From the NCBI RefSeq assembly GCF_019649055.1, contig NW_026570391.1, positions 1 to 64,000 of the forward strand: a stretch of DNA of 64,000 bases, written 5' to 3'. Both the position numbers and the translations under genes were made by a program. A model generated the notes under the pieces. The model was not told the origin of the DNA and did no database searches. It saw nothing but the letters and a program-made list of their open reading frames with translations. Positions within the stretch are counted from its first letter, which is position 1. Each line of letters begins with the position of its first letter. Source of the stretch: Paramacrobiotus metropolitanus (taxonomy: Eukaryota; Tardigrada; Eutardigrada; Parachela; Macrobiotidae). Shown in pieces: positions 6,057 to 30,424 of this stretch.

Positions 6057-6064
6057 GCTTTATC
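6057..6064. repeat. Left 8-bp target site duplication (GCTTTATC)
   Basis: This octamer is identical to 30417-30424 and directly abuts the left terminal repeat of the transposon. Confidence 0.85.
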
Positions 6065-6089
6065 TAGGACTGGCTCAATCCGTACCAAG
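6065..6089 (+). repeat. Transposon left terminal inverted repeat
   Basis: It starts TAGGACTGGCTCAATC and ends GTACCAAG. It matches the reverse complement of 30392-30416 at 21 of 25 positions and recurs exactly at 12777-12801. Confidence 0.85.
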
Positions 6090-6185
6090 ATCTTGCGTAG
6101 CGCAACAGTTTTGGCGTAGCTACCATTCTAAACAGCAACACGCCGCAACAATGCTACCCTTGGTATCGGGCTATGCAAACGCAAG

Positions 6186-8665
6186 GTCGCGACTCGCCGC
6201 AACGGGCCGCGACCAGGGCTAGCGTGTGTGCCAGCACTGACTGCCGCGACGCCGCAACAGCCGCGACACGGCTTATAAGCCGCGACAGGCCGCAACGGGC
6301 CGCAACCAGTGCTGGCGTGTGTGCCAGTACTGACTGCCGCGACGTCGCAACAGCCGCGACACGGCTTATAAGCCGCGACAGGCCGCAACGGGCCGCAACC
6401 AGTGCTGGCGTGTGTGCCAGTACTGACTGCCGCGACGCCGCAACAGCCGCGACACGGCTTATAAGCCGCGACAGGCCGCAACGGGCCGCAACCAGTGCTG
6501 GCGTGTGTGCCAGTACTGACTGCCGCGACGCCGCAACAGCCGCGACACGGCTTATAAGCCGCGACAGGCCGCAACGGGCCGCGACCAGGGCCAGCGTGTG
6601 TGCCAGCACTGGCTGCCGCGACGCCGCAACAGCCGCGACACGGCTTATAAGCTGCGACAGGCCGCAACGGGCCGCAACCAGTGCTGGCGTGTGTGCCAGT
6701 ACTGACTGCCGCGACGCCGCAACAGCCGCGACACGGCTTATAAGCCGCGACCGGCCGCAACGGGCCGCGACCAGGGCCAGCGTGTGTGCCAGCACTGGCT
6801 GCCGCGACGCCGCAACAGCCGCGACACGGCTTATAAGCCGCGACAGGCCGCAACGGGCCGCAACCAGTGCTGGCGTGTGTGCCAGTACTGACTGCCGCGA
6901 CGCCGCAACAGCCGCGACACGGCTTATAAGCCGCGACAGGCCGCAACGGGCCGCGACCAGGGCTAGCGTGTGTGCCAGCACTGGCCTGAGGCGACGCCGC
7001 AACAGCCGCGACAGGCCGCAACGGGCCGCGACCAGGGCTAGCGTGCGTGCCAGCACTGGCTGCCGCGACGCCGCAACAGCCGCGACACGGCTTATAAGCC
7101 GCGACAGGCCGCAACGGGCCGCAACCAGTGCTGGCGTGTGTGCCAGTACTGACTGCCGCGACGCCGCAACAGCCGCGACACGGCTTATAAGCTGCGACAG
7201 GCCGCAACGGGCCGCAACCAGGGCTAGCGTGCGTGCCAGCACTGGCTGCCGCGACGCCGCAACAGCCGCGACACGGCTTATAAGCCGCGACAGGCCGCAA
7301 CGGGCCGCGACCAGGGCTAGCGTGCGTGCCAGCACTGGCTGCCGCGACGCCGCAACAGCCGCGACACGGCTTATAAGCCGCGACAGGCCGCAACGGGCCG
7401 CAACCAGTGCTGGCGTGTGCCAGTACTGACTGCCGCGACGCCGCAACAGCCGCGACACGGCTTATAAGCTGCGACAGGCCGCAACGGGCCGCAACCAGTG
7501 CTGGCGTGTGTGCCAGTACTGACTGCCGCGACGCCGCAACAGCCGCGACACGGCTTATAAGCTGCGACAGGCCGCAACGGGCCGCAACCAGTGCTGGCGT
7601 GTGTGCCAGTACTGACTGCCGCGACGTCGCAACAGCCGCGACACGGCTTATAAGCTGCGACAGGCCGCAACGGGCCGCAACCAGTGCTGGCGTGTGTGCC
7701 AGTACTGACTGCCGCGACGTCGCAACAGCCGCGACACGGCTTATAAGCCGCGACAGGCCGCAACGGGCCGCAACCAGTGCTGGCGTGTGTGCCAGTACTG
7801 ACTGCCGCGACGCCGCAACAGCCGCGACACGGCTTATAAGCTGCGACAGGCCGCAACGGGCCGCAACCAGTGCTGGCGTGTGTGCCAGTACTGACTGCCG
7901 CGACGTCGCAACAGCCGCGACACGGCTTATAAGCCGCGACAGGCCGCAACGGGCCGCAACCAGTGCTGGCGTGTGTGCCAGTACTGACTGCCGCGACGCC
8001 GCAACAGCCGCGACACGGCTTATAAGCCGCGACAGGCCGCAACGGGCCGCGACCAGGGCCAGCGTGTGTGCCAGCACTGGCTGCCGCGACGCCGCAACAG
8101 CCGCGACACGGCTTATAAGCTGCGACAGGCCGCAACGGGCCGCAACCAGTGCTGGCGTGTGTGCCAGTACTGACTGCCGCGACGTCGCAACAGCCGCGAC
8201 ACGGCTTATAAGCCGCGACAGGCCGCAACGGGCCGCAACCAGTGCTGGCGTGTGTGCCAGTACTGACTGCCGCGACGCCGCAACAGCCGCGACACGGCTT
8301 ATAAGCCGCGACAGGCCGCAACGGGCCGCGACCAGGGCTAGCGTGTGTGCCAGCACTGGCCTGAGGCGACGCCGCAACAGCCGCGACAGGCCGCAACGGG
8401 CCGCGACCAGGGCTAGCGTGCGTGCCAGCACTGGCTGCCGCGACGCCGCAACAGCCGCGACACGGCTTATAAGCCGCGACAGGCCGCAACGGGCCGCAAC
8501 CAGTGCTGGCGTGTGTGCCAGTACTGACTGCCGCGACGCCGCAACAGCCGCGACACGGCTTATAAGCCGCGACAGGCCGCAACCAGTGCTAGCGCGTGTG
8601 CCAGCACTTACTGCCGCGACGCAGCAACACGGCCTTTAAGTCGCGACAAGGCGCGACAGTGCAAC
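6186..8665 (+). repeat. 93-bp satellite array A (about 26 units)
   Basis: The unit is very rich in CG, contains the palindrome CGGCTTATAAGCCG and a second inverted pair around GTGCTGGC...GCCAGTAC. Unit variants alternate (GCCGCGACC versus GCCGCAACC, GACGTCG versus GACGCCG). Two short units near 6985 and 8360 lack the palindrome. The last eight units are the same variants, in the same order, as the whole of array B. Because 93 is a multiple of three and stops are rare in the unit, long open frames appear on both strands; they are not genes. Confidence 0.95.
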
Positions 8666-9018
8666 CAGAGATGCCACGATGCCCTTCCGGGACGGAGGAG
8701 TAGCGATGCAAGATTTTGGCTTGAAGGAGAATTACAGTGGTGGTAATTCCTTAATACTGCGCTAGAATGAACGTCAAGGCGCTGCTTCGTTTCTTATTTA
8801 TTGTGTCTAACTGTAAGTATACCATCTTGTATATTCGGCAATTAAAATTTACACACGTTCTCGTGATAATATTTATTTGGAAGAAAAACTAGAATTAAAA
8901 ACTGCAAACAAAATTGATAACCATAACATGGTTAAAGCACATTTTTATCTTAAAATCTGTTTCCACGTATTTGTCGTTCTTCTTAAAAATCGGTTCCTTT
9001 CAGACTTCATGCGGCGTG

Positions 9019-11628
9019 TCAATCGTCTGCACACGCGAGACACTTGAATGCCTTCTCCTTAGCGCTGGTCAACCTTCCCGTAATGCCTCCGCATTTCTTA
9101 TGAAACACAAGACGGCAGGTTGTACACGCAATTCCACGTTCCTTCTGACTTGTTTCCTTAGCACACTTGGCACACTGCAAAATACGGTATTATAAAATTT
9201 ACATCCAGAAATGCTATTAGGAAGGGTTTGGGTATTGACCTTCACTTCATCATCGCGCGAAATAACTTCAACAAGTTTTGGTTTTCGCGTTTGAGGCCCA
9301 GAACCTAAAAACGACTGGTCAATTCAAACAGAGAGATGTGGGAAATGCTAAACGAAGAATGTGTTGCGCATCATCTTCTTAATTAATACGACTGAAAAGC
9401 TTTGGTGTCATTCAGCGAGAAAAAAACTTGGATTTATGTAGTTGTAATTACTGGTAAATACTGTATGTTAACTCATTTTCACTAGATCAAACGGGAAAAA
9501 CTAATAAACAAGGTTTTGGGCGTCTGTAATGGTAAAATATGTTCCTATAGTTTACATGAGGTAAGTATTTCCTTTCGGCTGTTTCAATAAAATGATGGGT
9601 TTGGATGACGGCACTTTTACAGTATCAAAGCATTATGCTGCGAGCTGCATGCGTTAACGTAATTTTACCGATGGATTTTGCCGAAGTGTTCTGGTTCCTA
9701 ACATGATAAAGATATCGCAAAAGTTCGCAGAAAGTAAAATTATTCAGGAGCTAAAAATTACCATGTTTTTTACGACAGTAATTTAAATCAAAACAAACAT
9801 CACTAAAATCTGGTGTCTGGATTACGAAGAAACGTCGTAAAGGTGTCCTTTCATGTCTAACGCCTATACCTCCATGGCCTATGCAACATGACCTATTATG
9901 CAAAGCGTCATACCAAGTACTGTGCATCTTCACATTATTTGTTCAGCGTCCTGATTGAAAAACCTGAGAATCTACATTCAGTTCTGATAAAGCGCAGCGC
10001 TGCTAGGTACCGTATATGGCCTTTTCATACCTGTATCCACAAGCTTTTCATACCTGTATCCTTCCGCGGCTGAATGTTAAGCCAAATTTGCAGACACACG
10101 AGTGTTGCTTGTTCTCTTCTTGTAAAAATTGTGGCGAACGTGGTGATGGAAACATTTCGAATCTGTTCTCAAACTGCCAACAATGCGCTTGTAACCGACA
10201 GAACCATCCGTCGGTTCAGAAAAAAATCTGTTGTACGTAAATTTTGCTCTTCCAGGATTTTATAATAACATTAATATGTTTACTGTCCTGTCAACGTTGC
10301 CCCCGCAAGGCTGCAGACAGAGTTTGACCTTTTGGCAAAACAAAAAGTTACCGGCAAAGCCACTGGACCCGCCCTCTCCTCCCGGGGCTCGTATGATCTG
10401 AACTGCATTATTCCTAAGGAACCGGACCAGCAAAACACCCGGCAAACATTTTTGCTGTCTCCACCTTTATACGATCGCTAGAATGGCAACCCTTGGCCAG
10501 TATGGTAAAATTACAAAGATGGCTGCCCCACAGAAAAGGATGATTGGTGACCTTTTTGACCCTTCCACGAGCGCTGTTACAGTCTTACAAATTGATAACA
10601 TTGCAGAATTATTCAAGACTGCTTGTGACCGACGAACGGACATCGCCAGTTACTTGGGGATGAGTATATACGGCCACCGCGCACCGGAGCATGTCCCTCC
10701 CAATGCTTCCGTGCATATGTGCATTCGGTGGCGGTGACCGACGAACGGACATCACGCTTCCCTTTAATTCTGAACATAAAGGACCTTCGCTACGCTTCGG
10801 TCGACTACAATTATGTCTTGAACATTGGTTATGTTTGTACATATATATCATCAGAAATTACACCTTTGCCGTAGTTCTTACCTAACTGACGCATTAACTC
10901 CACAGCCTTTTTTGAAACGAGTTGCAGCGGAACGGCCGAAGCCTTGACCGGCCGACCGTCCAAACGTACATCCCGAGAAATTTCAGCGCTGGGAATAAGA
11001 CGTAATGTCGGCAAATAACTGCTCATAAAGCGCGCATCAATTCCTCTGGTCTTGAGGTTTGCCACAAAAGCGTCCTGCTTAAAGGCAAGGAAGGACACCG
11101 CTTCTCCGCTTTTTGCCATTCCATTTACAACTCTGACGCTACTCAATACCTAGCAACGCATTAGTGTTTCGTGAGTGGGTTGTTCCATTTATCTAACTAA
11201 CATTCAGGTCAAACATATTATTTTCTGCATCGCCTTTCCCGGGTATCACCAACACTGATAATTTTAAAAAATGTCTTACCGTGCTTGGATCCGCTTTCTG
11301 GACAGCTTCTTCGATAATCAAGCTCAACTTAGTGGGAGCCGACGCGATCTGCTCTTCTTTGACATTAGGCGAAAGCGGCGTCTGAGGTGGTGCGTGCTTG
11401 GGTTTAGGGTCGGGATTCTTCTGCCACTGAGCCGCTTCTCTGCACATATCCTTCAGAACAAAGTGACGTAGGGCTTCCAGACTTACGCATTTTTTTATAT
11501 CCACCATCTCCAGTACCTAAAGAAAAGCAACGAAGCCTTGTGACAGCCGTATACTGCTGTTGATCGACCACAGGCAACAACATGGCTCGTTTGTTCAGGC
11601 AAGGTTTCAATCGTTTAATGTTGTGCAT
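9019..11628 (-). CDS. PHD-finger protein carried by the transposon (copy A)
   Basis: Five exons join in phase into 260 aa: 11572-11628, 11280-11516, 10882-11149, 9240-9304 and 9019-9174. Introns 1, 2 and 4 are 55, 130 and 65 nt; intron 3 is 1577 nt. The N-terminal and middle parts are not recognised (KPKHAPPQTPLSPNVKEEQ linker, then an alpha/beta-looking block with IDARFMSSYLPTLRLIP). The last exon encodes a compact zinc finger with the PHD spacing C-x2-C, C-x2-C, H-x2-C, C-x2-C (CAKCAKET, CTTCRLVFHKKC, FKCLACADD), then the stop. PHD fingers usually read histone tails, so a chromatin-targeting role for the element is an inference. Exon 4 could be preceded by an undetected exon, but the 3-to-4 phase fits directly. 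Confidence 0.65.
10483..10737 (+). CDS. Hypothetical short ORF inside PHD-gene intron 3 (copy A)
   Basis: It starts MATLGQYGKITKMAAPQKRM and lies antisense in the large intron of the PHD gene. Copy B keeps a longer version (15488-15880); here one G is missing from the G-run near 10660 and the frame changes after SYLG. A direct repeat (GACCGACGAACGGACATC) occurs inside it at about 10628 and 10737. No family is recognised and it may be non-coding. Confidence 0.2.
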   Translation: MATLGQYGKITKMAAPQKRMIGDLFDPSTSAVTVLQIDNIAELFKTACDRRTDIASYLGMSIYGHRAPEHVPPNASVHMCIRWR

Positions 11629-12776
11629 CGTAGCTTATCAACGGAGCCTTATCAACGGACATCATTACTGCACTAGCCGTAACGCAAAAGCACATTATAA
11701 TAATCATGCATGCACACCCCTTCGGAGCTGTTCGCCCACGACGGCACAGTAGAGGTGAGTTACGGTTATCGGACAGTGTACAGATTACTTTAAGATGTAA
11801 GCTGGAATATTTACAAGTTGAAGCACAAAATTCGCTTGCTTGACAAAATTTCTTGAAAGCTGGTCTCCACAGCTTAAAGATCAGAATTCTCCACAAGTTA
11901 AAATTAATCAGTTTATGTTTTCATAGTAAATAGTTTCAACCGAGTCCTAGACAAGTGCACTTCTGCAGTTTTTTTATACCTTTGGCATAAGATATTGACA
12001 CTTCGATGATGTAAGTTGTGTAGTGCACGTAAGTACACGTTTTTGCTACACAAAGGCGATTGCTGTTATTTTGAGATTACTGCTGACGCAAAAAAGGAAT
12101 CCTTTTTACGGTTAATAGCGGTTGAGCAGTTTAGTAAGAATGAGTTAAATTTAGATGTCTCAAGTCTGGAACGCAACTTTAGTGTTAAAAGCTGCTCTAA
12201 GTAGCTGCTTAAGTTGCTACTGCACAAAGTAAATGGGCGCTAACCGGTGCTTACTTTTGAAACGCTTGGATTACGCTTTCTGAGAAGACTACGGCTGCCA
12301 ATATGGTTCCACGATGCATATATACGGTAGTATGACTTTTGGTTTGTTTTAAATGCATCGTCACACGCATCACTAGCAATTTTTGTTTTTACTGTAAGGA
12401 AACGCAATATTCTACCAACCGAAAATACTCAAACCAAATAAAAAACCGGCGTTTTTTGGCAAAGTCGCAATGTGCCATGACAGCGCAACCTGTTCAGCGT
12501 ATGCACCCTGTCTATAACTTTTTAGCTGAGATAAGATGTGTTTTGCAAAATGAAAAAGTTCAAAATATTTAAAAGGCCGTACGGGGAAAAATGGCACGTG
12601 GAAAAAAGGGCCGCGAGAAACAACCCAAAAAAGGAGACGGCCATTTTCTTTAGGCACTCGGTACTTCAAGCCAGACCGAAACTCGGGTTGTTTTTGTGCC
12701 TCTCTGTCTTTTAGCAGGATTTCAGATGATCTCAAGGACCGATTCCTTTTAAACATTTCAAATTGACTTTCATAAC
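11629..12776. other. Transposon spacer, copy A
   Basis: This is AT-rich sequence between the PHD gene and the second left terminus. Short frames such as 12016-12204 are preserved only because the two copies are nearly identical. I see no gene. Confidence 0.4.
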
Positions 12777-12801
12777 TAGGACTGGCTCAATCCGTACCAA
12801 G
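12777..12801 (+). repeat. Internal second copy of the left terminal repeat
   Basis: It is identical to 6065-6089, preceded by TTCATAAC rather than by GCTTTATC. It marks the exact start of copy B. Confidence 0.9.
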
Positions 12802-12896
12802 ATCTTGCGTAGCGCAACAGTTTTGGCGTAGCTACCATTCTAAACAGCAACACGCCGCAACAATGCTACCCTTGGTATCGGGCTATGCAAACGCAA

Positions 12897-13665
12897 GGTC
12901 GCGACGTCGCAACAGCCGCGACACGGCTTATAAGCCGCGACAGGCCGCAACGGGCCGCAACCAGTGCTGGCGTGTGTGCCAGTACTGACTGCCGCGACGC
13001 CGCAACAGCCGCGACACGGCTTATAAGCCGCGACAGGCCGCAACGGGCCGCGACCAGGGCCAGCGTGTGTGCCAGCACTGGCTGCCGCGACGCCGCAACA
13101 GCCGCGACACGGCTTATAAGCTGCGACAGGCCGCAACGGGCCGCAACCAGTGCTGGCGTGTGTGCCAGTACTGACTGCCGCGACGTCGCAACAGCCGCGA
13201 CACGGCTTATAAGCCGCGACAGGCCGCAACGGGCCGCAACCAGTGCTGGCGTGTGTGCCAGTACTGACTGCCGCGACGCCGCAACAGCCGCGACACGGCT
13301 TATAAGCCGCGACAGGCCGCAACGGGCCGCGACCAGGGCTAGCGTGTGTGCCAGCACTGGCCTGAGGCGACGCCGCAACAGCCGCGACAGGCCGCAACGG
13401 GCCGCGACCAGGGCTAGCGTGCGTGCTAGCACTGGCTGCCGCGACGCCGCAACAGCCGCGACACGGCTTATAAGCCGCGACAGGCCGCAACGGGCCGCAA
13501 CCAGTGCTGGCGTGTGTGCTAGTACTGACTGCCGCGACGCCGCAACAGCCGCGACACGGCTTATAAGCCGCGACAGGCCGCAACCAGTGCTAGCGCGTGT
13601 GCCAGCACTTACTGCCGCGACGCAGCAACACGAAGCCTTTAAGTCGCGACAAGGCGCGACAGTGC
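12897..13665 (+). repeat. 93-bp satellite array B (8 units)
   Basis: The eight units, including one short unit near 13360, match the final eight units of array A in order and variant type. So either A expanded or B lost 18 units after duplication. Confidence 0.95.
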
Positions 13666-14019
13666 AACCAGAGATGCCACGATGCCCTTCCGGGACGGAG
13701 GAGTAGCGATGCAAGATTTTGGCTTGAAGGAGAATTACAGTGGTGGTAATTCCTTAATACTGCGCTAGAATGAACGTCAAGGCGCTGCTTCGTTTCTTAT
13801 TTATTGTGTCTAACTGTAAGTATACCATCTTGTATATTCGGCAATTAAAATTTACACACGTTCTCGTGATAATATTTATTTGGAAGAAAACTAGAATTAA
13901 AACTGCAAACAAAATTGATAACCATAACATGGTTAAAGCACATTTTTATCTTAAAATCTGTTTCCACGTATTTGTCGTTCTTCTTAAAAATCGGTTCCTT
14001 TCAGACTTCATGCGGCGTG

Positions 14020-16632
14020 TCAATCGTCTGCACACGCGAGACACTTGAATGCCTTCTCCTTAGCGCTGGTCAACCTTCCCGTAATGCCTCCGCATTTCTT
14101 ATGAAACACAAGACGGCAGGTTGTACACGCAATTCCACGTTCCTTCTGACTTGTTTCCTTAGCACACTTGGCACACTGCAAAATACGGTATTATAAAATT
14201 TACATCCAGAAATGCTATTAGGAAGGGTTTGGGTATTGACCTTCACTTCATCATCGCGCGAAATAACTTCAACAAGTTTTGGTTTTCGCGTTTGAGGCCC
14301 AGAACCTAAAAAACGACTGGTCAATTCAAACAGAGAGATGTGGGAAATGCTAAACGAAGAATGTGTTGCGCATCATCTTCTTAATTAATACGACTGAAAA
14401 GCTTTGGTGTCATTCAGCGAGAAAAAAACTTGGATTTATGTAGTTGTAATTACTGGTAAATACTGTATGTTAACTCATTTTCACTAGATCAAACGGGAAA
14501 AACTAATAAACAAGGTTTTGGGCGTCTGTAATGGTAAAATATGTTCCTATAGTTTACATGAGGTAAGTATTTCCTTTCGGCTGTTTCAATAAAATGATGG
14601 GTTTGGATGACGGCACTTTTACAGTATCAAAGCATTATGCTGCGAGCTGCATGCGTTAACGTAATTTTACCGATGGATTTTGCCGAAGTGTTCTGGTTCC
14701 TAACATGATAAAGATATCGCAAAAGTTCGCAGAAAGTAAAATTATTCAGGAGCTAAAAATTACCATGTTTTTTACGACAGTAATTTAAATCAAAACAAAC
14801 ATCACTAAAATCTGGTGTCTGGATTACGAAGAAACGTCGTAAAGGTGTCCTTTCATGTCTAACGCCTATACCTCCATGGCCTATGCAACATGACCTATTA
14901 TGCAAAGCGTCATACCAAGTACTGTGCATCTTCACATTATTTGTTCAGCGTCCTGATTGAAAAACCTGAGAATCTACATTCAGTTCTGATAAAGCGCAGC
15001 GCTGCTAGGTACCGTATATGGCCTTTTCATACCTGTATCCACAAGCTTTTCATACCTGTATCCTTCCGCGGCTGAATGTTAAGCCAAATTTGCAGACACA
15101 CGAGTGTTGCTTGTTCTCTTCTTGTAAAAATTGTGGCGAACGTGGTGATGGAAACATTTCGAATCTGTTCTCAAACTGCCAACAATGCGCTTGTAACCGA
15201 CAGAACCATCCGTCGGTTCAGAAAAAAATCTGTTGTACGTAAATTTTGCTCTTCCAGGATTTTATAATAACATTAATATGTTTACTGTCCTGTCAACGTT
15301 GCCCCCGCAAGGCTGCAGACAGAGTTTGACCTTTTGGCAAAACAAAAAGTTACCGGCAAAGCCACTGGACCCGCCCTCTCCCCTCCCGGGGCTCGTATGA
15401 TCTGAACTGCATTATTCCTAAGGAACCGGACCAGCAAAAACACCCGGCAAACATTTTTGCTGTCTCCACCTTTATACGATCGCTAGAATGGCAACCCTTG
15501 GCCAGTATGGTAAAATTACAAAGATGGCTGCCCCACAGAAAAGGATGATTGGTGACCTTTTTGACCCTTCCACGAGCGCTGTTACAGTCTTACAAATTGA
15601 TAACATTGCAGAATTATTCAAGACTGCTTGTGACCGACGAACGGACATCGCCAGTTACTTGGGGGATGAGTATATACGGCCACCGCGCACCGGAGCATGT
15701 CCCTCCCAATGCTTCCGTGCATATGTGCATTCGGTGGCGGTGACCGACGAACGGACATCACGCTTCCCTTTAATTCTGAACATAAAGGACCTTCGCTACG
15801 CTTCGGTCGACTACAATTATGTCTTGAACATTGGTTATGTTTGTACATATATATCATCAGAAATTACACCTTTGCCGTAGTTCTTACCTAACTGACGCAT
15901 TAACTCCACAGCCTTTTTTGAAACGAGTTGCAGCGGAACGGCCGAAGCCTTGACCGGCCGACCGTCCAAACGTACATCCCGAGAAATTTCAGCGCTGGGA
16001 ATAAGACGTAAAGTCGGCAAATAACTGCTCATAAAGCGCGCATCAATTCCTCTGGTCTTGAGGTTTGCCACAAAAGCGTCCTGCTTAAAGGCAAGGAAGG
16101 ACACCGCTTCTCCGCTTTTTGCCATTCCATTTACAACTCTGACGCTACTCAATACCTAGCAACGCATTAGTATTTCGTGAGTGGGTTGTACCATAGATCT
16201 AACTAACATTCAGGTCAAACATATTATTTTTTGCATCGCTTTTCCCGGGTATCACCTACACTGATAATTTTAAAAATTTCTTACCGTGCTTGGATCCGCT
16301 TTCTGGACAGCTTCTTCGATAATCAAGCTCAACTTAGTGGGAGCCGACGCGATCTGCTCTTCTTTGACATTAGGCGAAAGCGGCGTCTGAGGTGGTGCGT
16401 GCTTGGGTTTAAGGTCGGGATTCTTCTGCCACTGAGCCGCTTCTCTGCACATATCCTTCAGAACAAAGTGACGTAGGGCTTCCAGACTTACGCATTTTTT
16501 ATATCCACCATCTCCAGTACCTAAAGAAAAGCAACGAAGCCTTGTGACAGCCGTATACTGCTGTTGATCGACCACAGGCAACAACATGGCTCGTTTGTTC
16601 AGGCAAGGTTTCAATCGTTTAATGTTGTGCAT
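14020..16632 (-). pseudogene. PHD-finger gene, copy B, with 1-nt deletion in exon 2
   Basis: The exons are those of copy A (16576-16632, 16285-16520, 15888-16155, 14241-14305, 14020-14175). Exon 2 has 236 rather than 237 nt because an A-run is one base shorter just after the acceptor, near 16497. The spliced frame then hits a stop within a few codons. If the first 55-nt intron is retained, the frame is restored and stays open from the ATG at 16632 into the conserved block. So this copy could be dead, alternatively expressed, or an assembly artefact. Confidence 0.55.
15488..15880 (+). CDS. Hypothetical 130-aa ORF antisense in PHD-gene intron 3 (copy B)
   Basis: It opens MATLGQYGKITKMAAPQKRM and runs to ...SSEITPLP. 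It is open through two copies of the direct repeat GACCGACGAACGGACATC. No homology is recognised. A Cys-rich stretch upstream at 15076-15242 (CKNCGERGDGN, CQQCACNRQNH) may be a further exon of the same transcript, but I could not find a consistent splice. Low certainty. Confidence 0.25.
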   Translation: MATLGQYGKITKMAAPQKRMIGDLFDPSTSAVTVLQIDNIAELFKTACDRRTDIASYLGDEYIRPPRTGACPSQCFRAYVHSVAVTDERTSRFPLILNIKDLRYASVDYNYVLNIGYVCTYISSEITPLP

Positions 16633-20900: not shown

Positions 20901-21435
20901 ACATCGAAATAGTAAGACAAAAGAAGTAATTTTTCAAATTAAAGAAGCGCGGCATAACTAACTGTTTTTGAAGAAAGCAGTATCATGCGGTCTAGGTAAA
21001 TTATCTGAGTAACATTTAAGAAACTACAAAACGAAAGCAATGACAGACAGCAAGTTGTAAATATGGCATTTCACCACATTTATTTGAACGCCTAAATGTA
21101 GTGCACTGCTTGCTTTTTAGTTTTTACAGTGCTGGTTCTAAAGTAATTCTAATTGTCAAGACTCATTACACTCACAATGTTCCAAAAACATCGCAATCAA
21201 CCTCCACTAAATATCCGCCATCCGTATCGTTTTCATCACCGCAGACAATGGCAATGATTTCAATTGCGCAGCTTAAAACTTCCCGTCGACCGTCATCTTC
21301 TTCCTTCAATGCCGCGACCTTAAAGGTCTTCGCGTTTTCCACGCCAAACGTGTAACAGGTGGTAGCCTGATTAAAAAGTTTTTGAGCAAAGCGTTACGGA
21401 CTATATTCGCACATTAACATTACCGATGAATCCAT
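17934..21435 (-). CDS. SF3/AAA+-like helicase (P-loop ATPase) carried by the transposon
   Basis: Five exons join in phase into 400 aa: 21424-21435, 21176-21366, 19908-20191, 18332-18707 and 17934-18273. Introns are 57, 984, 1200 and 58 nt. The C-terminal half is a P-loop NTPase. Walker A is GDTNCGKS (188-195), a hydrophobic strand ends in IHDP (Asp 238, Walker B-like), VIITLN gives a sensor Asn (276), and R290/R294 precede VLVPF, as in SF3 helicases. The segment LGLSLALGGAYAG before the P-loop resembles the helical lead-in seen in DUF927-type helicases, and the N-terminus may be a divergent DUF927-like domain. A role in replicating or mobilising the element is inferred. It is transcribed away from the transposase gene across a 467-bp gap. 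The 12-nt first exon (MDSS) is the weakest part. Confidence 0.68.
19102..19397. mobile_element. 296-bp foldback / MITE inside helicase intron
   Basis: Its 25-bp termini (TAGCG-x-CTCG-x-TCAAGTG-x-CACCAC, 19102-19126 versus the reverse complement of 19373-19397) match at 22 of 25. The core contains a perfect 42-bp hairpin. No coding capacity; the target duplication is unclear. Confidence 0.6.
19154..19247. repeat. Perfect 42-bp stem hairpin with 10-nt loop
   Basis: Positions 19154-19195 and 19206-19247 are exact reverse complements, built from TACGTAC/GTACTGGTAC words. If transcribed with the helicase pre-mRNA it would form a long perfect duplex. Confidence 0.9.
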
Positions 21436-21902
21436 GCGTCCGGTCAAGGATTATTCTGTAGGTGAGATGTCAACATAAGCACAATGCAGGTTTCATGGAA
21501 GATGAAATTTTACTGCATATCACCAAAACTACATTGAGAACATTAAATCTACCAGTTCTCTGCAATCCGAAGACGTGTTTTCGCTTTAATGAATTTTATT
21601 CGTGCGTCATCTGTGCAGTTACGTGGACAAGAAAAACGTGACTAACGCCACACCTTATGTGCTCTGTTTATGTGAACTGGGCCGGCACACTACCGCTTGC
21701 GGTGTATGTAATTGTGCGCGGCACATGAGAAGAGCGGCGCCTTTGGTCTTTGGCAACTGTGTGGTCTGCCTTTGCCGAACTTATAGATCTTTATGTGATG
21801 CATGCGTGTAGTCAGAGGCGGTTTTAACAAAACCATACAGAGTCACTTAAAGAAGATTGAACCCGTTTATATCTCAATGATCTAGTGATTAATGTTAGCG
21901 CC
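21436..21902. promoter_or_regulatory. Divergent intergenic region between helicase and transposase genes
   Basis: This 467-bp gap separates two divergent start codons and presumably holds both promoters. A Cys-rich open frame at 21602-21811 on the plus strand (CGVCNCARHMRR, CVVCLCRTYRSLCDACV) lies inside. It might be a tiny zinc-binding peptide or chance. Confidence 0.3.
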
Positions 21903-24900
21903 ATGGCGAAAAGAATCAAGCTGGAGGCGAATTCTCGTGAAGCGTCCTCATTTATGGCTGAAAAATATGGTTTTCAAAATTTGGAGCGCCTGAAAATTTG
22001 TTGCGCAGCTGTACCGAAAAGTTTGCCGTTTCCTCGTCGACTGAAGGTGAGATGTCCTCGCTTTGAATGAAGCTCTTTCGCTAAATAAATTTAAGTGACT
22101 ACACCGTTAAAAGTTTCCTTATATTTGTAATGCGGGCAAAGCAGATAACATGCATTTTTTGAAGATCAAATTACTACCCAGGACACATTTTTAGTGCTCA
22201 GATTTGAAAAAATGTCTTCCGTAAGCATGCTACCTATATGCATTTCTTAAACGAAACATGCTTGTTACTGCGTAGTTAGTGTTAAGCACAGTTTGATAGA
22301 GGTTTTGCGCGCCACTTTCTCTTTACAATTAGTGCAGCAGCAGATGTACCTGTAATTTGTCAAGTAAGGACTGAACAAAAACCCTGGGTTGACTCTTGAC
22401 ACCGTTGTCCAACCCTTAACTTTGCTTTGGGTATTTTCGTGCAATGACAAACAAAATATTTTGTAGTAAGAAGCCAATAGTCAACCATTTGGAAGCAACG
22501 AAATAATCCACTGCAGGCGGCTTGAATTGGTTATACGAGTATAACGCAAACTGTCCTTTTCACTTTACTGGTTAAGTTACAGTACCTCGAATTTGACTGA
22601 AACGGAATATCGGATTTGTGCTCCCCTTTCTTGTAATGGACACCAGCCCAGATCCTGTTTGAAAAACGAGGCAGCCCCACCCCTCTCTAAAATTACCTTA
22701 CACCTCACAATTAAGGCGACCGCTAGTGAATAGTAAGCGCTGCAAAATAATAGGTTGCCGAAAATTTCCTCCTGAAAACTGTGAGTTATGGTTAAACGGA
22801 CATCAGAAGGATGTTGTGTTGGCATAACGTTGCTTAGGTAGGTGTATGCTCTATAAAACTCGCAAAGTCGTGCAATTCCATATGCCGATAAGCCGGTAAC
22901 TACTGCGTTCGATTCGACTTAAACTGGATGGGTTCATTTTTGAATATACTGCCCCCTTCCAAAATTTTTTTCTTGACAAAAATTCCACCCCCTAAAAAAT
23001 TGCGCCCCCATTCAGAAATAATGCCCCATTGGCCATGGCCTTAGACTATTTGCATCCGGGGCCACAGATTCGATAGATACGGTGTAAAATGCAGCAACTG
23101 CATTACTAGTGCAACAGGAGCACTGATTCTCCCAATGACCCTAGTACGTGCAGTTGCAGACATTTCAGGTTGGGCCAGTGATCGACGACTGTTATAGGCC
23201 ATGTCTACCAAAGTGCCCGTTAACCTAAAATTATTACTGCCGCTCTCACAGAGCGCATACGGCAATATGTACATATTACAAAATATGAATCCCTGTGTGT
23301 ATACTCATTTCGTATACTCGAACACACATGCTCTGAGAGGATCATAAGATAAAGCAATAAGGACTTCGACCGAGCATTTTTTAAACGTTTCAAATTATCT
23401 TAATTTCAGGTATTATCGGAAATGCTGGGGATGTCTAAGTTGTTAACAGACACCTTTTTGAAAGACTTTGAATCGTTTTCTCCCGCATTTCTGGAAACTG
23501 GTCCTTTTGTTGCCCCATTCCAAGTACTGTGTCCACCAGTTATCCATTGTCTGAAAGGCTGCGTGTGGAAAAAGGGTGCTAATAAAGGAATGCCCAGAGT
23601 CTTGCAATGGCACCGTGATCCAACCAATGTACGACCGTAATTGTATTGTATTGTTAGAAAATTTGAACCTTTAAATAGTCTAGTTCGATTTATTTTGACG
23701 ATGCTTATTTTAGTGTGTGTTCGACTAAAGCGACTAATATTCGACTAAAGCGAATCGAATGTACTAGGTATAGGATCATGGAAGTAGAACTTTCCTCTGT
23801 CACGCACTAATTCGAAATAGACCTTCCCACTACTACGAGAAGTACCTCAGTCCCTTGCTTACTGCTCAATTTAAATACCCGGTGGTTAGATACCCGGCTT
23901 AGGTTGCAATTCCATGTGACTGACACGGTACCGCTTATTCCACTAAAATATTTCGGTTTCATCCTAACGAAGCGGCAATCGTGTAGCAACGCGATGATAA
24001 CAAACGTTTGCAGGCGTTCCCACAGGTAACGTCATGCAGCGAACGATTTGCCACCACAATATGCATGAGTTTCGCTTTCTTTTCTGAATTTGCTTACGAC
24101 ACCACACGACCTAGCACTCAGATCACCTCGTGATTAATATCATTATAATCCTAAGAATTTCTATCTTTTTTGAAGATCAAATCATTTTCAAGTAGCAGGT
24201 GGAGATTTTATAGATGCCCGCGCGGATACAATGACTGACTTAGATCAAAACGACAAAAGCCGCTATACCGAGCTGAGTGTCGTAATATGCATACTCGCTG
24301 CAACCTTTCGAATCTGTATTGTTTTTTCTCGATAGCTGCCTCACCTTTTCTGACCTGTCGCGCGCGTCAGTGCTGATGTTGCATGACTCCGATGCAGTGG
24401 GTGCTAGTGCGCGCCATGGGACAAAATGTGCGTTAGCATTCGAGGCAATACTGCTTTGAGTTCTTGATGAAAGCCGGCTGCGTAAGCACGCAACCGTCAC
24501 TGGCGCCGTATGGAGTACTGCTGCCAGGATGCCTGAACAGCGTCTGATAAAGTTTTGATCGAAATCAGCTATCATATCCGCGGTGGCTTCCTCGAGAATT
24601 CAAAATTTTACTTTCCTACACGGGTATGATTTTGATTTTCAAAGAACATTATAGAGTTTCTGAGGGTTCTAAAGATAATAATCACGAGTTGATCCGGATT
24701 CCAGGTGGTGGAGTATGCCCCTCGTTAGCTACTACTGTCTCCAAAATTACCTACCGATCATCAGATTTATCTTCCCCCACGATCAGTTAGCTAACCTATA
24801 GACTTAAAATTTTACACTACATGTAGGCACTAAGTTTACGCTTTGCTTCAGGTTACAATGTTTTGTGGCGCCGGAAAAATTGTTCAAGGATTAGCAGTCA

Positions 24901-27900
24901 CTTTAAGGTGCCGGGGTTGTGGTTCTCGTTATTCCCCTTGTACGTGGACGAATCGGGCTACGTCCACATATTCTTTTTACGATTCAGAGCAGCCGTTCCT
25001 TGATATTTCCCAGGAAATATACGTTTGCCGAAAATTTGCACTGGAAATCGTGAATAACATGTATGCTAGGGCTTCAGCGTTTGCAATGTTGCCGTTAAAA
25101 TACTTCTACTGTCATTTTTTTTTACTTTTAGATTCTTCAATCATGCAACTTACGACGGTATTGCGGAAACCATGAGACATACGTACGGTTGGAAAAAATG
25201 TAAAGTCACATGGTTTTGCTAAGAATTAGTGAAAACGAGAATAAATCTGACATCTCTGAATCTTCTAGTGTTCTCACGAAAAACTGTAGCCATCATCTTC
25301 ATACGGCATGAGATCGAATGTGACATTAGAGAGCGAAAGATCACGTACCAGTTCCAGGAAAAAAGAAGTGTGCTGCAATACCTGGACACGCGCATGGATG
25401 AAATTTTTACCAGCACCTACAAACACCGGTGTTCTAAAGCCTGCATAGCGAAGCAGTGCGGAAGGATCTTCATTATGGACGGAATCTGGAAAGTCGTTTT
25501 TCGACATTGTATAGCAGAAGTAGAAGTACGTAACTGCCAGAACGGCGTGCTGATGCAGAAAGTGAATAGTTTGTCTTTTCCCGTGAAAATGACTTTTAAC
25601 ACCCGGGTGTTACTGTGCTACGGGATTTTTTGCCCTGGGGTTACATTTTTTACGATTTACGTACCTAGTGGTTCGCAAATTAGGGGCTACGACCATCAGG
25701 AATTATAACTGGGTATTTCCCTATCTTATATCACTGTTGTACCAGTATTCTCTTGAAGTGTACGTACGTTACGTGCGTACACGATATGTCGAGACTAATT
25801 GCAGTTGTCTTCATAGCAACGCTCTAATTTACCTTTATATAACGGTAGCCGCTATTTGTGATAAGTTGCAGGTTGGCGAGTTCCAGTAAAGATACGTACT
25901 CCTACAAACGCATACAGTACTACCTTTACGTACATTAAACCCCGCATCGGTCCCTTCTTTTGGATTTTTTACAATTTGTGTAATGCAGTGGTGAGACGGA
26001 AGATCCGTCATGCTGTATTAAAGTCTTTCACGTATTTTAGTGTCCTTTTCCGTTCCTTGTCTTATAAGCATTGCTTGAATTAACCATTATACCAAATAGC
26101 ATAATTGGTGTGAGAACGGGAGTCGCTTTATTGCTTTTTAGTATAGCGGTAATAATAATTAATTCGTGATTGCAAAACGATGTGATGATTTTTTCAGAAT
26201 TTTGTGAAAGGGATTCCACTCGTAAACTTTCCATGTGTATGCACGCACTCGCCATCCGGAAAATCACTGTACTGCAAGAAACACACCCACCTGGACCGCC
26301 ATACCGAGAAGGAAACCGATAACATTACAATACACATGGCAGGTTGGTTTTTGGTGGCACATGTAATAAGGGAAACAAACTCCTCATTAAGTCATCCGGT
26401 GTCGTTCTCCTGTTATCTTGCAACTACGAGAAACTATTTCACCTTCATGGTTTGCTACACCAAAGGGAAGCCTGCCAAACAAAACTTTATACGGGATCTT
26501 TCACTAGTGCGATGAAATTTGGCATACGGATTTTAAGCCTTGTCTACAATTCGAAGCGAATTCAGCTTTGGTGTGGTTGTTAAACTGCACAAGATAGCTG
26601 TATTCAGGGGCCACGCCTACAGACACGGTACGCGAAGCCACCTTGCGAGGTGGCAACAAGAAGCGTTTCGAACTTGGAACAAGGCCTTAGTGCATGTAAT
26701 TGGTATCTTGCATAAGGTAACTGAATTCCGTTGCTCATACAGATGTACTGTTAAAGTTGTGAACGCGTTTGGTGAATTAGATCTTATTGCTGGTGTCAGA
26801 GCGCTGTGGTTTTCCAGGAGTGTCCAGAGCTATGCAGGCAAAAGCAACGAGTGACATCAACTCAATTCTGAGCGGTGAAATGGATACTGAGACACCGGAC
26901 AGCGATTGTCGAAAGTTTGATCCGAATGCCGGATGCAAGAAAAACAAAGGAGAAAACCAGCGCGGGCACCTGTACAGCCGAGGATATCTTTTCCTTGTGG
27001 GTCCAACAGGCCACATTTTTAGCTTTGCCCCAATCTACAGGTAAACTTGATAATGTGTTTACAGTCACGTCAGACTGCATCGTCGCCTAAGCATTGCCAG
27101 TCGAGTTTAAAGCGTGGCGTTGTAGTAACTTGAGGTTGGAACCGACTTTAACACTACAAAATACAAGTATCTGCCTAGTGCCTTCTCCGCACATTACAAC
27201 TTCTCAGTCTCTAGCTAACCTTGCAGGAGGCTGAAAAATTTGTTCCGCATCACCTTTCGCAATCAGCTTTCCCCTCAGCATTCTTCTCAGAAAATCTGAC
27301 GGACAGAACCAGAGTTTCACGAACAATACCTTGGCAAAACTAATTCACGGAAAGTTTCTACGTGCAAACGCGCAAAAAATTGTCAATGTGTTTCTACTGC
27401 ACCCGCCACACTTGCAAGACAGATCAGTTTGCGGGATGCGACGATCTTACGACCGATTGAAATAGATTGATTTCATCCTGTCTCCGGCATAGTGCTTGGG
27501 CAACTTGAACTAATCATATCGTTCGCGGACTCTGCAATTAATTGAAAACAGCCAGTTAAATTTGAGAGGTACAGCAGAAGTTTCTGTTTAATTCAAGCTC
27601 GGTGTCGAATTGCCCGTCGACCCCGTGGGCCCTTAAAAATAATGAAGCTTAAAAGAGGAACAACGACGCGTCATCGTCTACGAAACCAAAAATACTCCAT
27701 AAATAGAGCAATCTACAATTAATGAACGGTTCGGGGGCTGCCAACTTGGTTAAGTCGACTGACTGATAAAAAGCTGCAAAACGTCTACGGCGCATCTAAA
27801 TTTGCGGTACATCTCACCCATCTGCGTCACAGGGGCGGGCATCACGCCACCGGGAAATCAATCTACTGGGCTTTTGGTCTACTACGCCATTATGTTGATT

Positions 27901-29023
27901 TGTATAGTTCTGTTACCAAAGACAGAATTCCGTTTATGAACTAAATGGACAGACAAGCTATGCATTATTTCATGAAAGTTTTAAATCTAAGAGTCCTCAG
28001 AGTGAATTTCTCAGTAGTTTTAAATATGGAATGCTGACACTGAGCAAAAGCTTACGCCCCAACCGGATACACTCGAACCGGAAGGTAGCGCAAAAAGTAC
28101 CTCGCGGCTTTGTCACCATAATGTTATGTGTTCGGACCACTGACAAAGAAATTCTTCAAAGAGCTGTCGAGAAAGATCATCGACAGTACAGGCAACCCCC
28201 GCTCAGGAGAGTTTTTACGCCAAAAAATCAGTATTGAGAATCAGCTAGGAAATGCAGTTTCTATTCTCGGTACATTCAGCGACACGGTAGAGAAGGAAGA
28301 TATGTACTTTGCCTTTCATTTAGCGGATCGGAAATGATGTTATGGTTTTTGTTATCTGATATTCTTGTAATGCATTCTCCAGTACGAACCTCAAATGCAA
28401 TAAAGTACTTCACATGTTATGTGACACACAGTAAAATACTTTGCAGTGACAAATGGCTATGTTCGAGGGATAAAAACTTTTTTGTCTGTATGCAATAGGA
28501 TGGTGCAAAGGATCACGAACGGTTTTTTTTCAGGGCTGAAAGCCTTGGACAAGTTTACTTATTCGTCGTCAGCGCGCTTTACGATTTGCTGCAAAATGTT
28601 GCGCCGGAAGAATGGGAGAACATTTTTGTGTGCTACGATAACATCTGTCAGCTCAACAGACTTAAAGCCGCAAGCGCTCCTCTTCCTTTTCCGGAACCAT
28701 TTGACCAAATCTGGAACCGTGTGTCGAAAATTGTGGACGGGCTTCATATTCAAAACCACAAGGATCCCAGATGCAAAGAGAAGTACCATCCTGATAAGTA
28801 TTTGAAGAGTCATCCTACCGCCACTGAACGAAACACCATGGCAGCAGAACAGACATTTTCCTGGATCGCCAAGTTCAAGAAGCAATTAAATGCAATGAAC
28901 AAGGCAAGGCAGTTTTTCTTTATCCACCGAATGATAGTGCGAAGAAACGACTACATGTCTCACTGTGTGGCGAAAAATAGCCGACCTGTAGGTGGTACGA
29001 TGCGCACGTTTAAAGAAAAATGA
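21903..29023 (+). CDS. KDZ-type transposase with CxC5/CxC6-like cysteine clusters
   Basis: Eight exons join in consistent phase into 580 aa: 21903-22046, 23410-23628, 24852-25060, 25132-25187, 25269-25525, 26198-26342, 26818-27040 and 28534-29023. Features in order: a C-x2-C cluster near 141-144 (LRCRGCGSRY); a Cys/His cluster at 262-290 enclosing IMDGIWKVVF with Asp 280; C-x-C-T-H...YCKKH near 308-324; the IYRAES motif formed across the exon 7/8 junction; CYDNICQL with Asp 453; and a C-terminal block with HIQNHKD and AAEQTFSW with Glu 523. D280, D453 and E523 are good candidates for the RNase H-fold catalytic triad of KDZ transposases. This should be the enzyme that mobilises the 24-kb element. 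Exon 4's donor (ACG/GTTGGA) is the least certain junction. No lesion is seen in the joined frame. Confidence 0.78.
26353..26493 (+). pseudogene. Extra exon-like copy of the transposase GTCxK...E motif
   Basis: Within intron 6, a frame reads GTCNKGNKLLIKSSGVV and LFHLHGLLHQREACQ. It aligns with the exon 7 segment AGCKKNKGENQRGHLYSRGY and IFSFAPIYRAESLGQ. It is not in phase with exon 6 without a 1-nt change and lacks a good acceptor. It is probably an old duplicated exon or a captured fragment of a related element. Confidence 0.45.
27325..27465 (+). other. Coding-like fragment in transposase intron 7
   Basis: The frame reads NTLAKLIHGKFLRANAQKIV and continues NVFLLHPPHLQ to a stop. It resembles N-terminal exons of transposon genes, where a helix with GKxLR..A..IV..V recurs. 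No partner exon was found. Confidence 0.25.
28128..28337 (+). other. Coding-like fragment in transposase intron 7
   Basis: The frame contains TKKFFKELSRKIIDSTGNPR, then FLRQKISIENQLGNAVSILG, and ends ADRK. The FLxQ-IS..-Q-GNA-S-LGT pattern resembles the C-terminus of another transposon protein. It lacks a start or an acceptor and is probably a relic. Confidence 0.3.
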
Positions 29024-29714
29024 GCGGTAATATTGGTGCGCAAGGGTTACTTAGGTTAACATCTTTTTCAAGCGGCTTCATTTAACTGGAAGAGTCTACG
29101 CCTTTCCATCTGGGTGTCCTCGACTTTAGCCAGCGATGTGTCAGCAACAGTGTGCAATTTGCCTGCTCCGTTGGCAGGCGGCAATGTAGTCTGTACAATT
29201 TATTGTCCTGTCGCGGTAGTTCGGGCATTTGCGTTAATCAAATTAAAAATATTACTGTACTTAGTTGTATATTATTTCTCGCAGTTTTCCAGTATAACTT
29301 TTCACTGCGGATCCGAATATGCTAAAGTCTAGTTTAGTGAGACAATAATCGGCCAACCAGTTGTAGCGGGAATCAAGTAGTGGTAACTTTCAAAGGGCTT
29401 ATAGCTGACCTTCCAGACTGTTATCTTCTAGCAATAAATTCCACGAAAATTTTTATAAAAAACTTGAATTTCACGTGATAGGTGCTAGATGTGATGACTC
29501 CAAATGAAGGTGCACTTCCATAAACTTCTTGTATGTTAAAATATTCAGGAAGATTGTGGATAGTTATCGTGCAAAGCTAGCTAACTTGGAGATAATGTAC
29601 CCCAAGGATGAGACATCCGATAAAGTACAAGTTTTGTGTTGTGCCTGATATCTAAAAAGCAGGCGGAAAGATAGAGCTGGAACAATCGAAGAAAAAAAGC
29701 AGTGTCTAATATTC
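29024..29714. other. Transposon right spacer
   Basis: AT-rich sequence after the transposase stop codon and before the right satellite array. No gene seen. Confidence 0.4.
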
Positions 29715-30352
29715 ACACACGCTAGCACTGGTTGCGGCCCGTTGCGGCCTGTCGCGGCAAATAAGCCGTGTCGCGGCTGTTGCGGCATCGCGGCAGGCCA
29801 GTGCTGGCACACACGCTAGCACTGGTCGCGGCCCGTTGCGGCCTGTCGCAGCTTATAAGCCGTGTCGCGGCTGTTGCGGCGTCGCGGCAGGCCAGTGCTG
29901 GCACACACGCTAGCACTGGTCGCGGCCCGTTGCGGCCTGTCGCGGCTTATAGGCCGTGTCGCGGCTGTTGCGGCGTCGCGGCAGGCCAGTGCTGGCACAC
30001 ACGCTAGCACTAGTCGCGGCCCGTTGCGGGCTGTCGCAGCTTATAAGCCGTGTCGCGGCTGTTGCGGCGTCGCGGCAGGCCAGTGCTGGCACACACGCTA
30101 GCACTGGTCGCGGCCCGTTGCGGCCTGTCGCGGCTTATAGGCCGTGTCGCGGCTGTTGCGGCGTCGCGGCAGGCCAGTGCTGGCACACACGCTAGCACTA
30201 GTCGCGGCCCGTTGCGGGCTGTCGCAGCTTATAAGCCGTGTCGCGGCTGTTGCGGCGTCGCGGCAGGCCAGTGCTGGCACACTCGCTAGCACTGGTCGCG
30301 GCCCGTTGCTGCCTGTCGCGGCTTATAAGCCGTCTTATAAGCCGTGTCGCGA
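29715..30352 (-). repeat. 94-bp satellite array C (about 7 units), inverted relative to A and B
   Basis: The unit is the reverse complement of the left-array unit with one extra base (CTGGCCTGCC versus CTGACTGCC), giving a 94-bp period. Units alternate in type (CTTATAAG versus CTTATAGG, GCACTGG versus GCACTAG), so a 188-bp dimer is repeated twice within the array. It lies 40 bp inside the right terminal repeat. Confidence 0.95.
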
Positions 30353-30391
30353 ATTCTGGTCCGCAACGAGACAGTGACAGTTAAAGCCGAA

Positions 30392-30416
30392 CTTGGTACA
30401 GATTGAGCCACTTCTG
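30392..30416 (-). repeat. Transposon right terminal inverted repeat
   Basis: Its reverse complement starts CAGAAGTGGCTCAATC and ends GTACCAAG, matching the left terminus at 21 of 25. Confidence 0.85.
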
Positions 30417-30424
30417 GCTTTATC
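30417..30424. repeat. Right 8-bp target site duplication (GCTTTATC)
   Basis: Identical to 6057-6064, directly outside the right terminal repeat. Confidence 0.85.

Follow-up and report, generated by a model that had tools for sequence, protein, structure and literature searches.

The stretch of DNA analysed here, referred to as the window, comprises 64,000 nucleotides of the tardigrade Paramacrobiotus metropolitanus (contig NW_026570391.1 of assembly GCF_019649055.1, positions 1 to 64,000). It harbors a 24-kb unit bounded by a left terminus at 6065 and a right terminus at 30416, in which two predicted genes lie head-to-head with their start codons 468 bp apart. A transposase gene is located on the plus strand, and a gene encoding a P-loop nucleoside triphosphatase (NTPase) with a C-terminal PHD-type finger, hereafter NTPase-PHD, is located on the minus strand. 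The 24-kb element is a genuine mobile unit, a giant transposon. Its transposase and its anatomy, as described below, make it very probably a DNA transposon of the cut-and-paste type that belongs to the KDZ (Kyakuja-Dileera-Zisupton) superfamily.

Ends and genes of the element

The left end of the element, TAGGACTGGCTCAATCCGTACCAAG (6065–6089), matches the reverse complement of the right end, CAGAAGTGGCTCAATCTGTACCAAG (30392–30416), at 21 of 25 positions, and the element is flanked by identical 8-bp target-site duplications of GCTTTATC at 6057–6064 and 30417–30424. Satellite arrays follow inside both ends in inverted orientation. These termini, flanks and arrays had all been described in an initial annotation of this DNA, and each was confirmed in the window. 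For comparison, we searched the genome (169,799,020 bases in 533 contigs), where the window is C171 and the other C-labels used below name further loci; all genome-wide counts are lower bounds. The left-type and right-type end sequences are unlike each other and are used as a pair. The left-type terminus (TAGGACTGGCTC...) and its terminal unique region occupy 6065–6187 on the plus strand, and the first 121 nt of this region have 12 matches in the genome, two of them within the window. The right-type terminus (CAGAAGTGGCTC... read inward) occupies 30341–30416 on the minus strand, and these 76 nt have 35 genome matches, the window copy counted. Both assignments also agree with the 24-bp patterns described in the next section. 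A 97-residue minus-strand reading frame crosses the joined flanks (6057 / 30424 joined), so that an exon may have been the site of insertion.

The two gene models are sequence-based predictions. Their exon borders were set by comparing each exon with its counterparts in up to five or six of 11 further loci. The transposase gene consists of eight exons between 21903 and 29023, with GT-AG introns throughout, and encodes a predicted stop-free protein of 584 residues. Its exons are all supported by the joined reading frame. In addition, exons 1 (21903–22046, with the ATG), 4 (25132–25199), 6 (26198–26342) and 7 (26818–27040) are placed by locus comparison, exon 2 (23410–23628, where the CxC5 match begins) by locus comparison and Pfam, exon 3 (24852–25060, with the CxC5 cluster) by Pfam, exon 5 (25269–25525) by motif conservation, and exon 8 (28534–29023, with the stop codon) by genome matches. 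Exon 5 contains the motif IMDGIWK with the candidate first acidic residue, and exon 8 contains YDNIC and AAEQTFSW with the candidate second and third. The two aspartates and the glutamate are kept in the loci read, where the motifs take the forms DG/E-x-W-K, YD-N/D and EQ, and the three residues are candidates for the acidic catalytic residues of KDZ transposases. About 1.2 kb of the last intron (27229–28410) are missing from the copies at C7a and C1a; this block is possibly a nested insertion.

The joined transposase matches PF18718 (CxC5) with an expectation value (E) of 7.9e-11 over residues 84–208 (42.6 bits, against a cut-off of 26.9), and the window is among the 27 of 32 CxC5 places in the genome that lie above the cut-off. 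A Pfam scan of ten single exons gave no KDZ domain, and CxC5 surfaced only with the joined protein. The search of the transposase product against KDZ profiles, which the initial annotation had proposed, therefore succeeded for CxC5 and gave no direct match to PF18758 at E up to 5. The missing direct match counts against a KDZ assignment, and the window is also absent from the seven genome places listed for PF18758. However, three of these seven places exceed the PF18758 cut-off, namely C65, C129 and C515, and all three are relatives of the window's exon 8, with identities of 36% (E 1.9e-20), 43% (3.3e-40) and 41% (2.0e-27), respectively. C53, which is below the PF18758 cut-off at 23.5 bits, is also related to the last transposase exon. 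Homology of the window transposase to the KDZ domain is thus indirect, through these PF18758-positive relatives, and the missing direct match is likely due to divergence. Combined with the CxC5 domain, the 8-bp duplications and the paralogous empty sites, this relationship upholds the earlier designation as a KDZ-type transposon.

The NTPase-PHD gene comprises ten exons from 21435 down to 9019 and predicts a protein of 672 residues, with GT-AG introns, in-phase exons and no interrupting stop. Exons 2 (21176–21366), 3 (20645–20797), 4 (19908–20191), 6 (17997–18273), 7 (11280–11516) and 8 (10882–11149) are placed by locus comparison and by the joined frame. The P-loop core, with GDTNCGKS, LPVVIHD and IITLN, is encoded by exon 5 (18332–18707), supported by genome matches, alignment and the joined frame. 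Exon 9 (9240–9304) fits the joined frame and is matched in C7a, while exon 1 (21424–21435), four codons starting with the ATG, is placed by the joined frame and is the weakest exon of the model. Exon 10 (9019–9174) carries the PHD-type finger and the stop codon and is supported by locus comparison, the joined frame and Pfam. The finger shows the C4HC3 zinc pattern (C-AK-C, C-TT-C, H-KK-C, C-LA-C), whose spacing is kept in C56. PF00628 (PHD) covers it over positions 1–47 of 47 with E 7.1e-5, at 23.2 bits, just under the Pfam cut-off of 24.0. The PHD finger of the initial annotation thus agrees with the zinc pattern and the E value, while its bit score falls slightly short.

That the exons of these genes join in phase, as had been reported from the letters of this DNA, was confirmed. 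The same annotation counted three gene types and regarded a helicase and a PHD-finger protein as cargo. A separate PHD gene was considered and set aside, since the reading frame of exon 8 runs on through exons 9 and 10. With their phases matched, the 'helicase' exons and the 'PHD' exons are better read as a single predicted gene, which leaves the element with two gene types instead of three. At 21 loci, as described below, this fused gene is the divergent neighbour of a transposase gene.

Mobile copies and the divergent gene pair

We searched the genome for the termini with two 24-bp patterns, allowing up to three mismatches. The patterns gave 78 and 52 matches, whereas the reversed patterns used as controls gave none. 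As the two lists overlap, the number of distinct ends is 93, of which 52 are left-type and 41 right-type. Pairing facing neighbour ends within 90 kb yielded 27 pairs, ranging in size from 301 bp to 32 kb, and 26 of these combine a left-type with a right-type end. A perfect 8-bp duplication flanks 14 of the 27 pairs (C171, C7a, C1a, C22, C247, C35a, C35b, C38, C44, C58n, C63, C7b, C92 and C98), with 6065 taken as the left end in the window. In two further pairs, the duplication is displaced, by one extra base at C60 and by three at C9, the latter judged by eye. When left and right flanks were combined across pairs, none of 812 mismatched combinations agreed at one mismatch or fewer; these came from 29 rows, including C53 and a C121 row outside the 27 pairs. 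Chance termini are ruled out by this null and by the reversed-pattern controls. The search for further copies by both termini, suggested in the initial annotation, therefore returned a family.

Empty sites were found as well. The joined flanks of the window element match C58 at 88% identity, unbroken across the junction and with a single GCCTTATC, in agreement with the empty site that had been envisaged for it. Those of the copy at C1a likewise match C118 (78%), gap-free over the junction. Both C58 and C118 are paralogous sequences rather than alleles. The flanks of C7a gave no such site, as their best match that crosses the junction (C13, 97%) ends just 8 bases beyond it and was not counted.

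Several observations count against this reading as a mobile family. No partner was found for 39 of the 93 ends, no duplication flanks 11 of the 27 pairs (C134, C142, C150n, C245, C69, C90, C1b, C335, C52, C56 and C59), and no near-identical copy of the window element is present among the copies compared, the synonymous divergence (dS) to C7a being about 0.25. One might also suspect that the 24-kb unit was misassembled, or that chance inverted repeats happen to enclose a mosaic of repeats unrelated to each other. Its tandem block, 99.5% identical and with satellite inside, is indeed a place where assemblies fail. Against this stand the 14 exact duplications, the long copies at other loci, which keep the gene order of the window element, and the empty-site paralogs; we regard such an artefact as highly improbable.

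Shorter and rearranged copies accompany the long ones. C22 (481 bp) and C247 (1594 bp) hold small elements with both family ends and perfect 8-bp duplications, which are presumably non-autonomous. The short copies in C90 and C245 share identical outer flanks. Their flank TTTTGAATGAAT also borders both ends of C1b, in inverted orientation, and C1b has two left-type ends; it reads as a rearranged, copied derivative. A 24.8-kb element at C35:433659-458463 has both ends and a perfect duplication, and the exon-query searches gave no transposase or NTPase match within it.

The pairing of the two genes recurs across this family. A search with the window exon gave 27 NTPase matches; for 23 of them a transposase match is no more than 20 kb away, in divergent orientation in 20 cases. 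After the addition of two distant queries, the NTPase loci number 37 and the transposase loci 54. A transposase locus is then present within 20 kb for 24 of the 37, divergently for 21, whereas the proximity expected by chance is about 0.013 per locus. In the other three near cases (C7b, C56 and C92), a second NTPase match lies on the strand of the transposase, beyond its 3' end. The second NTPase of C7b is a diverged gene with three matched stretches, and short matches are similarly placed at C56:367947 and C92:18402.

The divergent pair persists from near-identical copies down to copies of 23–25% identity. Moreover, the identities of the two proteins to those of the window fall together (Spearman 0.82), as calculated over 18 of the 20 divergent pairs from the window-exon query, leaving out the window itself and the fragment C9:891265; this set includes several near-identical copies. 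The ratios of nonsynonymous to synonymous divergence (dN/dS) against C7a are 0.14 for the transposase (583 codons, with one stop in the aligned C7a stretch) and 0.16 for NTPase-PHD (504 codons), and against C1a they are 0.13 (584 codons) and 0.29 (265 codons). The ratios for C38, C60, C56 and C7b were not used, because the synonymous changes are near or past saturation. By these ratios, both genes are under purifying selection.

These results bear on the possibility that NTPase-PHD is a passenger acquired from the host or a virus and dispensable for transposition. Such a view gains from the low recovery of the partner, as an NTPase was found within 20 kb at only 21 of the 54 transposase loci and none near the other 33. 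Close copies show gaps as well: C60 has both ends and the transposase exons, with no NTPase match, C1a lacks residues 27–431, and C7a lacks residues 437–599. These gaps may be deletions, losses or missed homologs. KDZ elements elsewhere also hold varied extra genes, according to excerpts of two reports (PMC12477816, PMC12730594). On the other hand, the divergent arrangement is unchanged over the whole range of identities, and in the comparison with C7a the purifying selection on NTPase-PHD is similar to that on the transposase. Nor did a viral source appear: an IMG/VR scan with exact peptide patterns of one exon, which reaches close relatives only, gave no viral NTPase relative, and tblastn of phage records gave no phage relative. 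A dispensable passenger therefore seems unlikely to us. Given the divergent position beside the transposase gene at 21 loci, NTPase-PHD looks like a component of the element rather than cargo, although some copies are without it. Polinton-, Helitron- and virus-like origins of the element were set aside, because no polymerase, capsid or rolling-circle domain appeared when ten exon frames and the two joined proteins were scanned.

Satellite arms and rearrangements within the element

The left subterminal array (6188–8583, plus strand) consists of about 24 copies of a 93-bp unit, and the right array (29714–30333, minus strand), inverted to the left one, of 6.6 copies of a 94-bp unit. Where an end of another subfamily was located, an array with a different unit lies just inside it, of 92 bp in C38, 82 bp in C56, 81 bp in C7b and 49 bp in C53, such that the unit varies between 49 and 94 bp across subfamilies. 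In C50 and C58, whose ends were not located, arrays of an 84-bp unit are present close to the genes. The element at C53 measures 6392 bp and represents a distant subfamily; its ends read TAGATATGGC and CAGAAGTGGC, its duplication is TCAGATTG, and each end has an array. Its matches are restricted to the 3' parts of both genes, and it is no independent evidence for the duplication length because it came to light in a scan for such duplications.

The two arms of one copy resemble each other. In all five elements in which both arms were compared by shared 13-mers, the element's own arms are more alike than either is to an arm of any other element (C171 0.26, C7a 0.23 with a next best of 0.20, C1a 0.42, C60 0.20 and C53 0.17). 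The orientation of the gene module, in turn, is variable. Among 20 elements examined, 13 have a gene match, and the transposase points toward the right-type end in six and toward the left-type end in seven, two of the 13 being judged from the NTPase. Exchange between the inverted arms would explain both the likeness of the arms and the flips of the module, although the flipping is deduced from copies at different loci and was not seen within one locus. These transposon ends carry their own fast-turning satellites, alike at both ends of each copy, which may be a source of host satellite DNA and could offer a natural test of coevolution between binding sites and transposase. The near-even split in module orientation would be an unusual, countable sign of recombination between transposon arms.

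The window element also contains an extra tandem copy of its left part. The segment 6065–12776 (plus strand) and its partner 12777–17781 are 99.5% identical over 4151 bp outside the arrays, and 12777–13630 (plus strand) forms an internal second left terminus with a shorter satellite array. Owing to this tandem duplication, exons 7–10 of NTPase-PHD are present twice. The second copy (14023–16638, minus strand), which is the gene-proximal one, has an exon 7 that is one base shorter and out of frame. About 6.7 kb of the element is a recent internal duplication, and the element minus the duplication measures about 17.6 kb, as 6065–12776 is a tandem copy. The second copy starts exactly at the terminal nucleotides TAGGACTGG, with no GCTTTATC ahead of them, and at the junction (12777 / 17781) an internal position directly adjoins the precise last base of the element, with no target duplication present. 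This junction would fit a break made by the transposase at the left end and joined to an internal site of the element.

Outside the element, two similar reading-frame blocks at 48899–52171 and 57385–60668 appear by eye to be tandem copies with protein-kinase- and Kelch-like features. Three similar long frames that share a Cys/Trp pattern by eye lie on the minus strand, one upstream of the transposon (3175–4008) and two downstream (38561–39388 and 43756–44571).

Proposed mechanism and relation to known systems

The NTPase core presents, in this order, a P-loop (GDTNCGKS), an hPhhhHD motif, a sensor-1-like asparagine and a serine. Eight members with identities as low as 21–31% were aligned, and all of them keep the G and K of the P-loop, the P-H-D of the second motif and the asparagine, although the C58 protein carries W in place of the second G of the P-loop. 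The order of these motifs is what favors a superfamily 3 (SF3) or AAA+ DNA helicase, which would unwind or replicate the element DNA and make transposition partly replicative. However, Pfam, PHROGs and the PDB were searched with the profile or with members of the eight-sequence alignment, and the matches did not exceed chance level. Those in the direction of a helicase were found for one member each (Pfam AAA at E 0.034, a PHROG DNA primase at 0.087 and a DNA helicase at 0.2). The best Pfam stray was Cas_CXXC_CXXC (E 0.0098, one member only), and the PDB returned two unrelated proteins (E 0.013 and 0.033) as well as, at E 1.9, the AAA+ ATPase p97, with a match confined to the P-loop. For the NTPase exon, AlphaFold run on the single sequence gave a model with a mean predicted local distance difference test score of 38, which was of no help and was not used for a fold search. 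The 8-bp duplications and clean insertion also fit plain cut-and-paste. We therefore hold the helicase function to be a tentative option. The initial 'SF3-like helicase' remains a guess, because no library names the domain.

In prokaryotic transposons, the ATPases MuB, TnsC, IstB and TniB serve target selection, and their genes are neighbours of a gene for a DDE-type transposase. The window element resembles these systems in having an ATPase partner next to its transposase gene, and a similar function of its NTPase, with the PHD-type finger providing chromatin targeting, would agree with the divergent gene pair at 21 loci and with the C-terminal position of the finger. TniB is also the Pfam model matched by most core members, albeit two of eight and at chance level (best E 0.09, 12.6 bits against a cut-off of 22.4). 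The window NTPase differs from these ATPases in being eukaryotic, in bearing the finger and in having no significant sequence relation to them, and we know of no eukaryotic target-selection ATPase of the MuB/TnsC kind. Target selection by the NTPase is therefore possible, with doubts as large as those attached to a helicase. Taking the two mechanisms together, a role of the NTPase in transposition is somewhat favored.

Based on these considerations, transposition might proceed as follows. The transposase, with a presumed RNase H fold and three acidic residues, would cut at the termini and insert the element with an 8-bp stagger. The satellite arrays would supply many binding sites, probably for the cysteine cluster of the transposase or for the NTPase. 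As a regular partner in transposition, the NTPase would use ATP to remodel DNA at the ends, or to choose and activate the target DNA, while the PHD-type finger could dock on histone H3 tails. The inverted arrays might recombine within the element, keeping the arms alike and flipping the gene module between the ends. In its fullest form, this would be a two-protein machine of a KDZ transposase and a dedicated ATPase that chooses chromatin targets via the PHD-type finger, in a MuB/TnsC-like role of independent origin. The machine would act on fast-evolving, satellite-like binding-site arrays at both ends, with flipping of the module and replacement of the arrays in each subfamily. All these parts holding at once is improbable. 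With this element, the giant KDZ transposons gain an animal lineage in which a second protein recurs, so that the role of accessory proteins in KDZ transposition becomes testable.

Among the KDZ groups, the element shows the traits of Zisupton and Dileera, as it combines 8-bp target duplications with terminal inverted repeats. The element does not fit Kyakuja, given these duplications and the 21/25 inverted termini: according to excerpts of PMC12730594, Kyakuja elements have 7-bp duplications and CA..TG ends without inverted repeats, while Zisupton elements have 8-bp duplications and terminal inverted repeats, and Zisupton-1_PGr, assigned to Dileera, also makes 8-bp duplications. Zisupton is recorded from fish and also from Pristionchus nematodes, fungi and algae, and Zisupton-like elements of nematodes are treated in PMC9297572; multi-exon KDZ transposase genes (PMC9297572) are a further likeness. 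In contrast, Zisupton/KDZ proteins reach about 1300–1400 residues in the passages concerned (PMC9297572, PMC12477816), whereas here a 584-residue transposase is accompanied by a separate NTPase-PHD gene. The unlike left and right ends and the satellite arms also set the window element apart from Zisupton. For the tardigrades Hypsibius and Ramazzottius, Zisupton-class repeats appear in the excerpt of PMC11071193 as a list entry only, with the superfamily named in curated repeat libraries and neither structure nor genes nor size given.

Giant size is likewise shared with known KDZ elements, whose length reaches 30.3 kb in Ectocarpus and 31.7 kb in Chlamydomonas, with many giant families carrying additional genes (PMC12477816, excerpts). 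Their accessory genes are mostly of unknown function in this account, whereas the window element carries NTPase-PHD. In the text of PMC12477816, 'PHD' has 0 occurrences and 'helicase' 2 (the passage shown being the reference list), and its excerpts describe no subterminal satellite arms. More broadly, in listings of open-licence PubMed Central papers and in excerpts of the papers cited, no KDZ element was seen to carry a gene for an NTPase, a helicase or a PHD protein; nor do the published KDZ descriptions, to the same extent, include an NTPase-PHD partner or subterminal satellite arms. There is a likeness in gene content to fungal Kyakuja and Dileera elements, which in the excerpts of PMC12730594 combine a KDZ transposase with a co-mobilised second gene. 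That gene is a TET/JBP dioxygenase, while the second gene of the window element is NTPase-PHD. Of the new autonomous lineage that the initial annotation proposed, a distinct lineage with intact predicted reading frames is supported, its autonomy being putative. Since the KDZ descriptions found lack an NTPase-PHD partner and satellite arms, the NTPase-PHD lineage, judged by comparison with these descriptions, appears to be new within the known KDZ group, whereas giant KDZ elements with extra genes are already known from fungi and algae.

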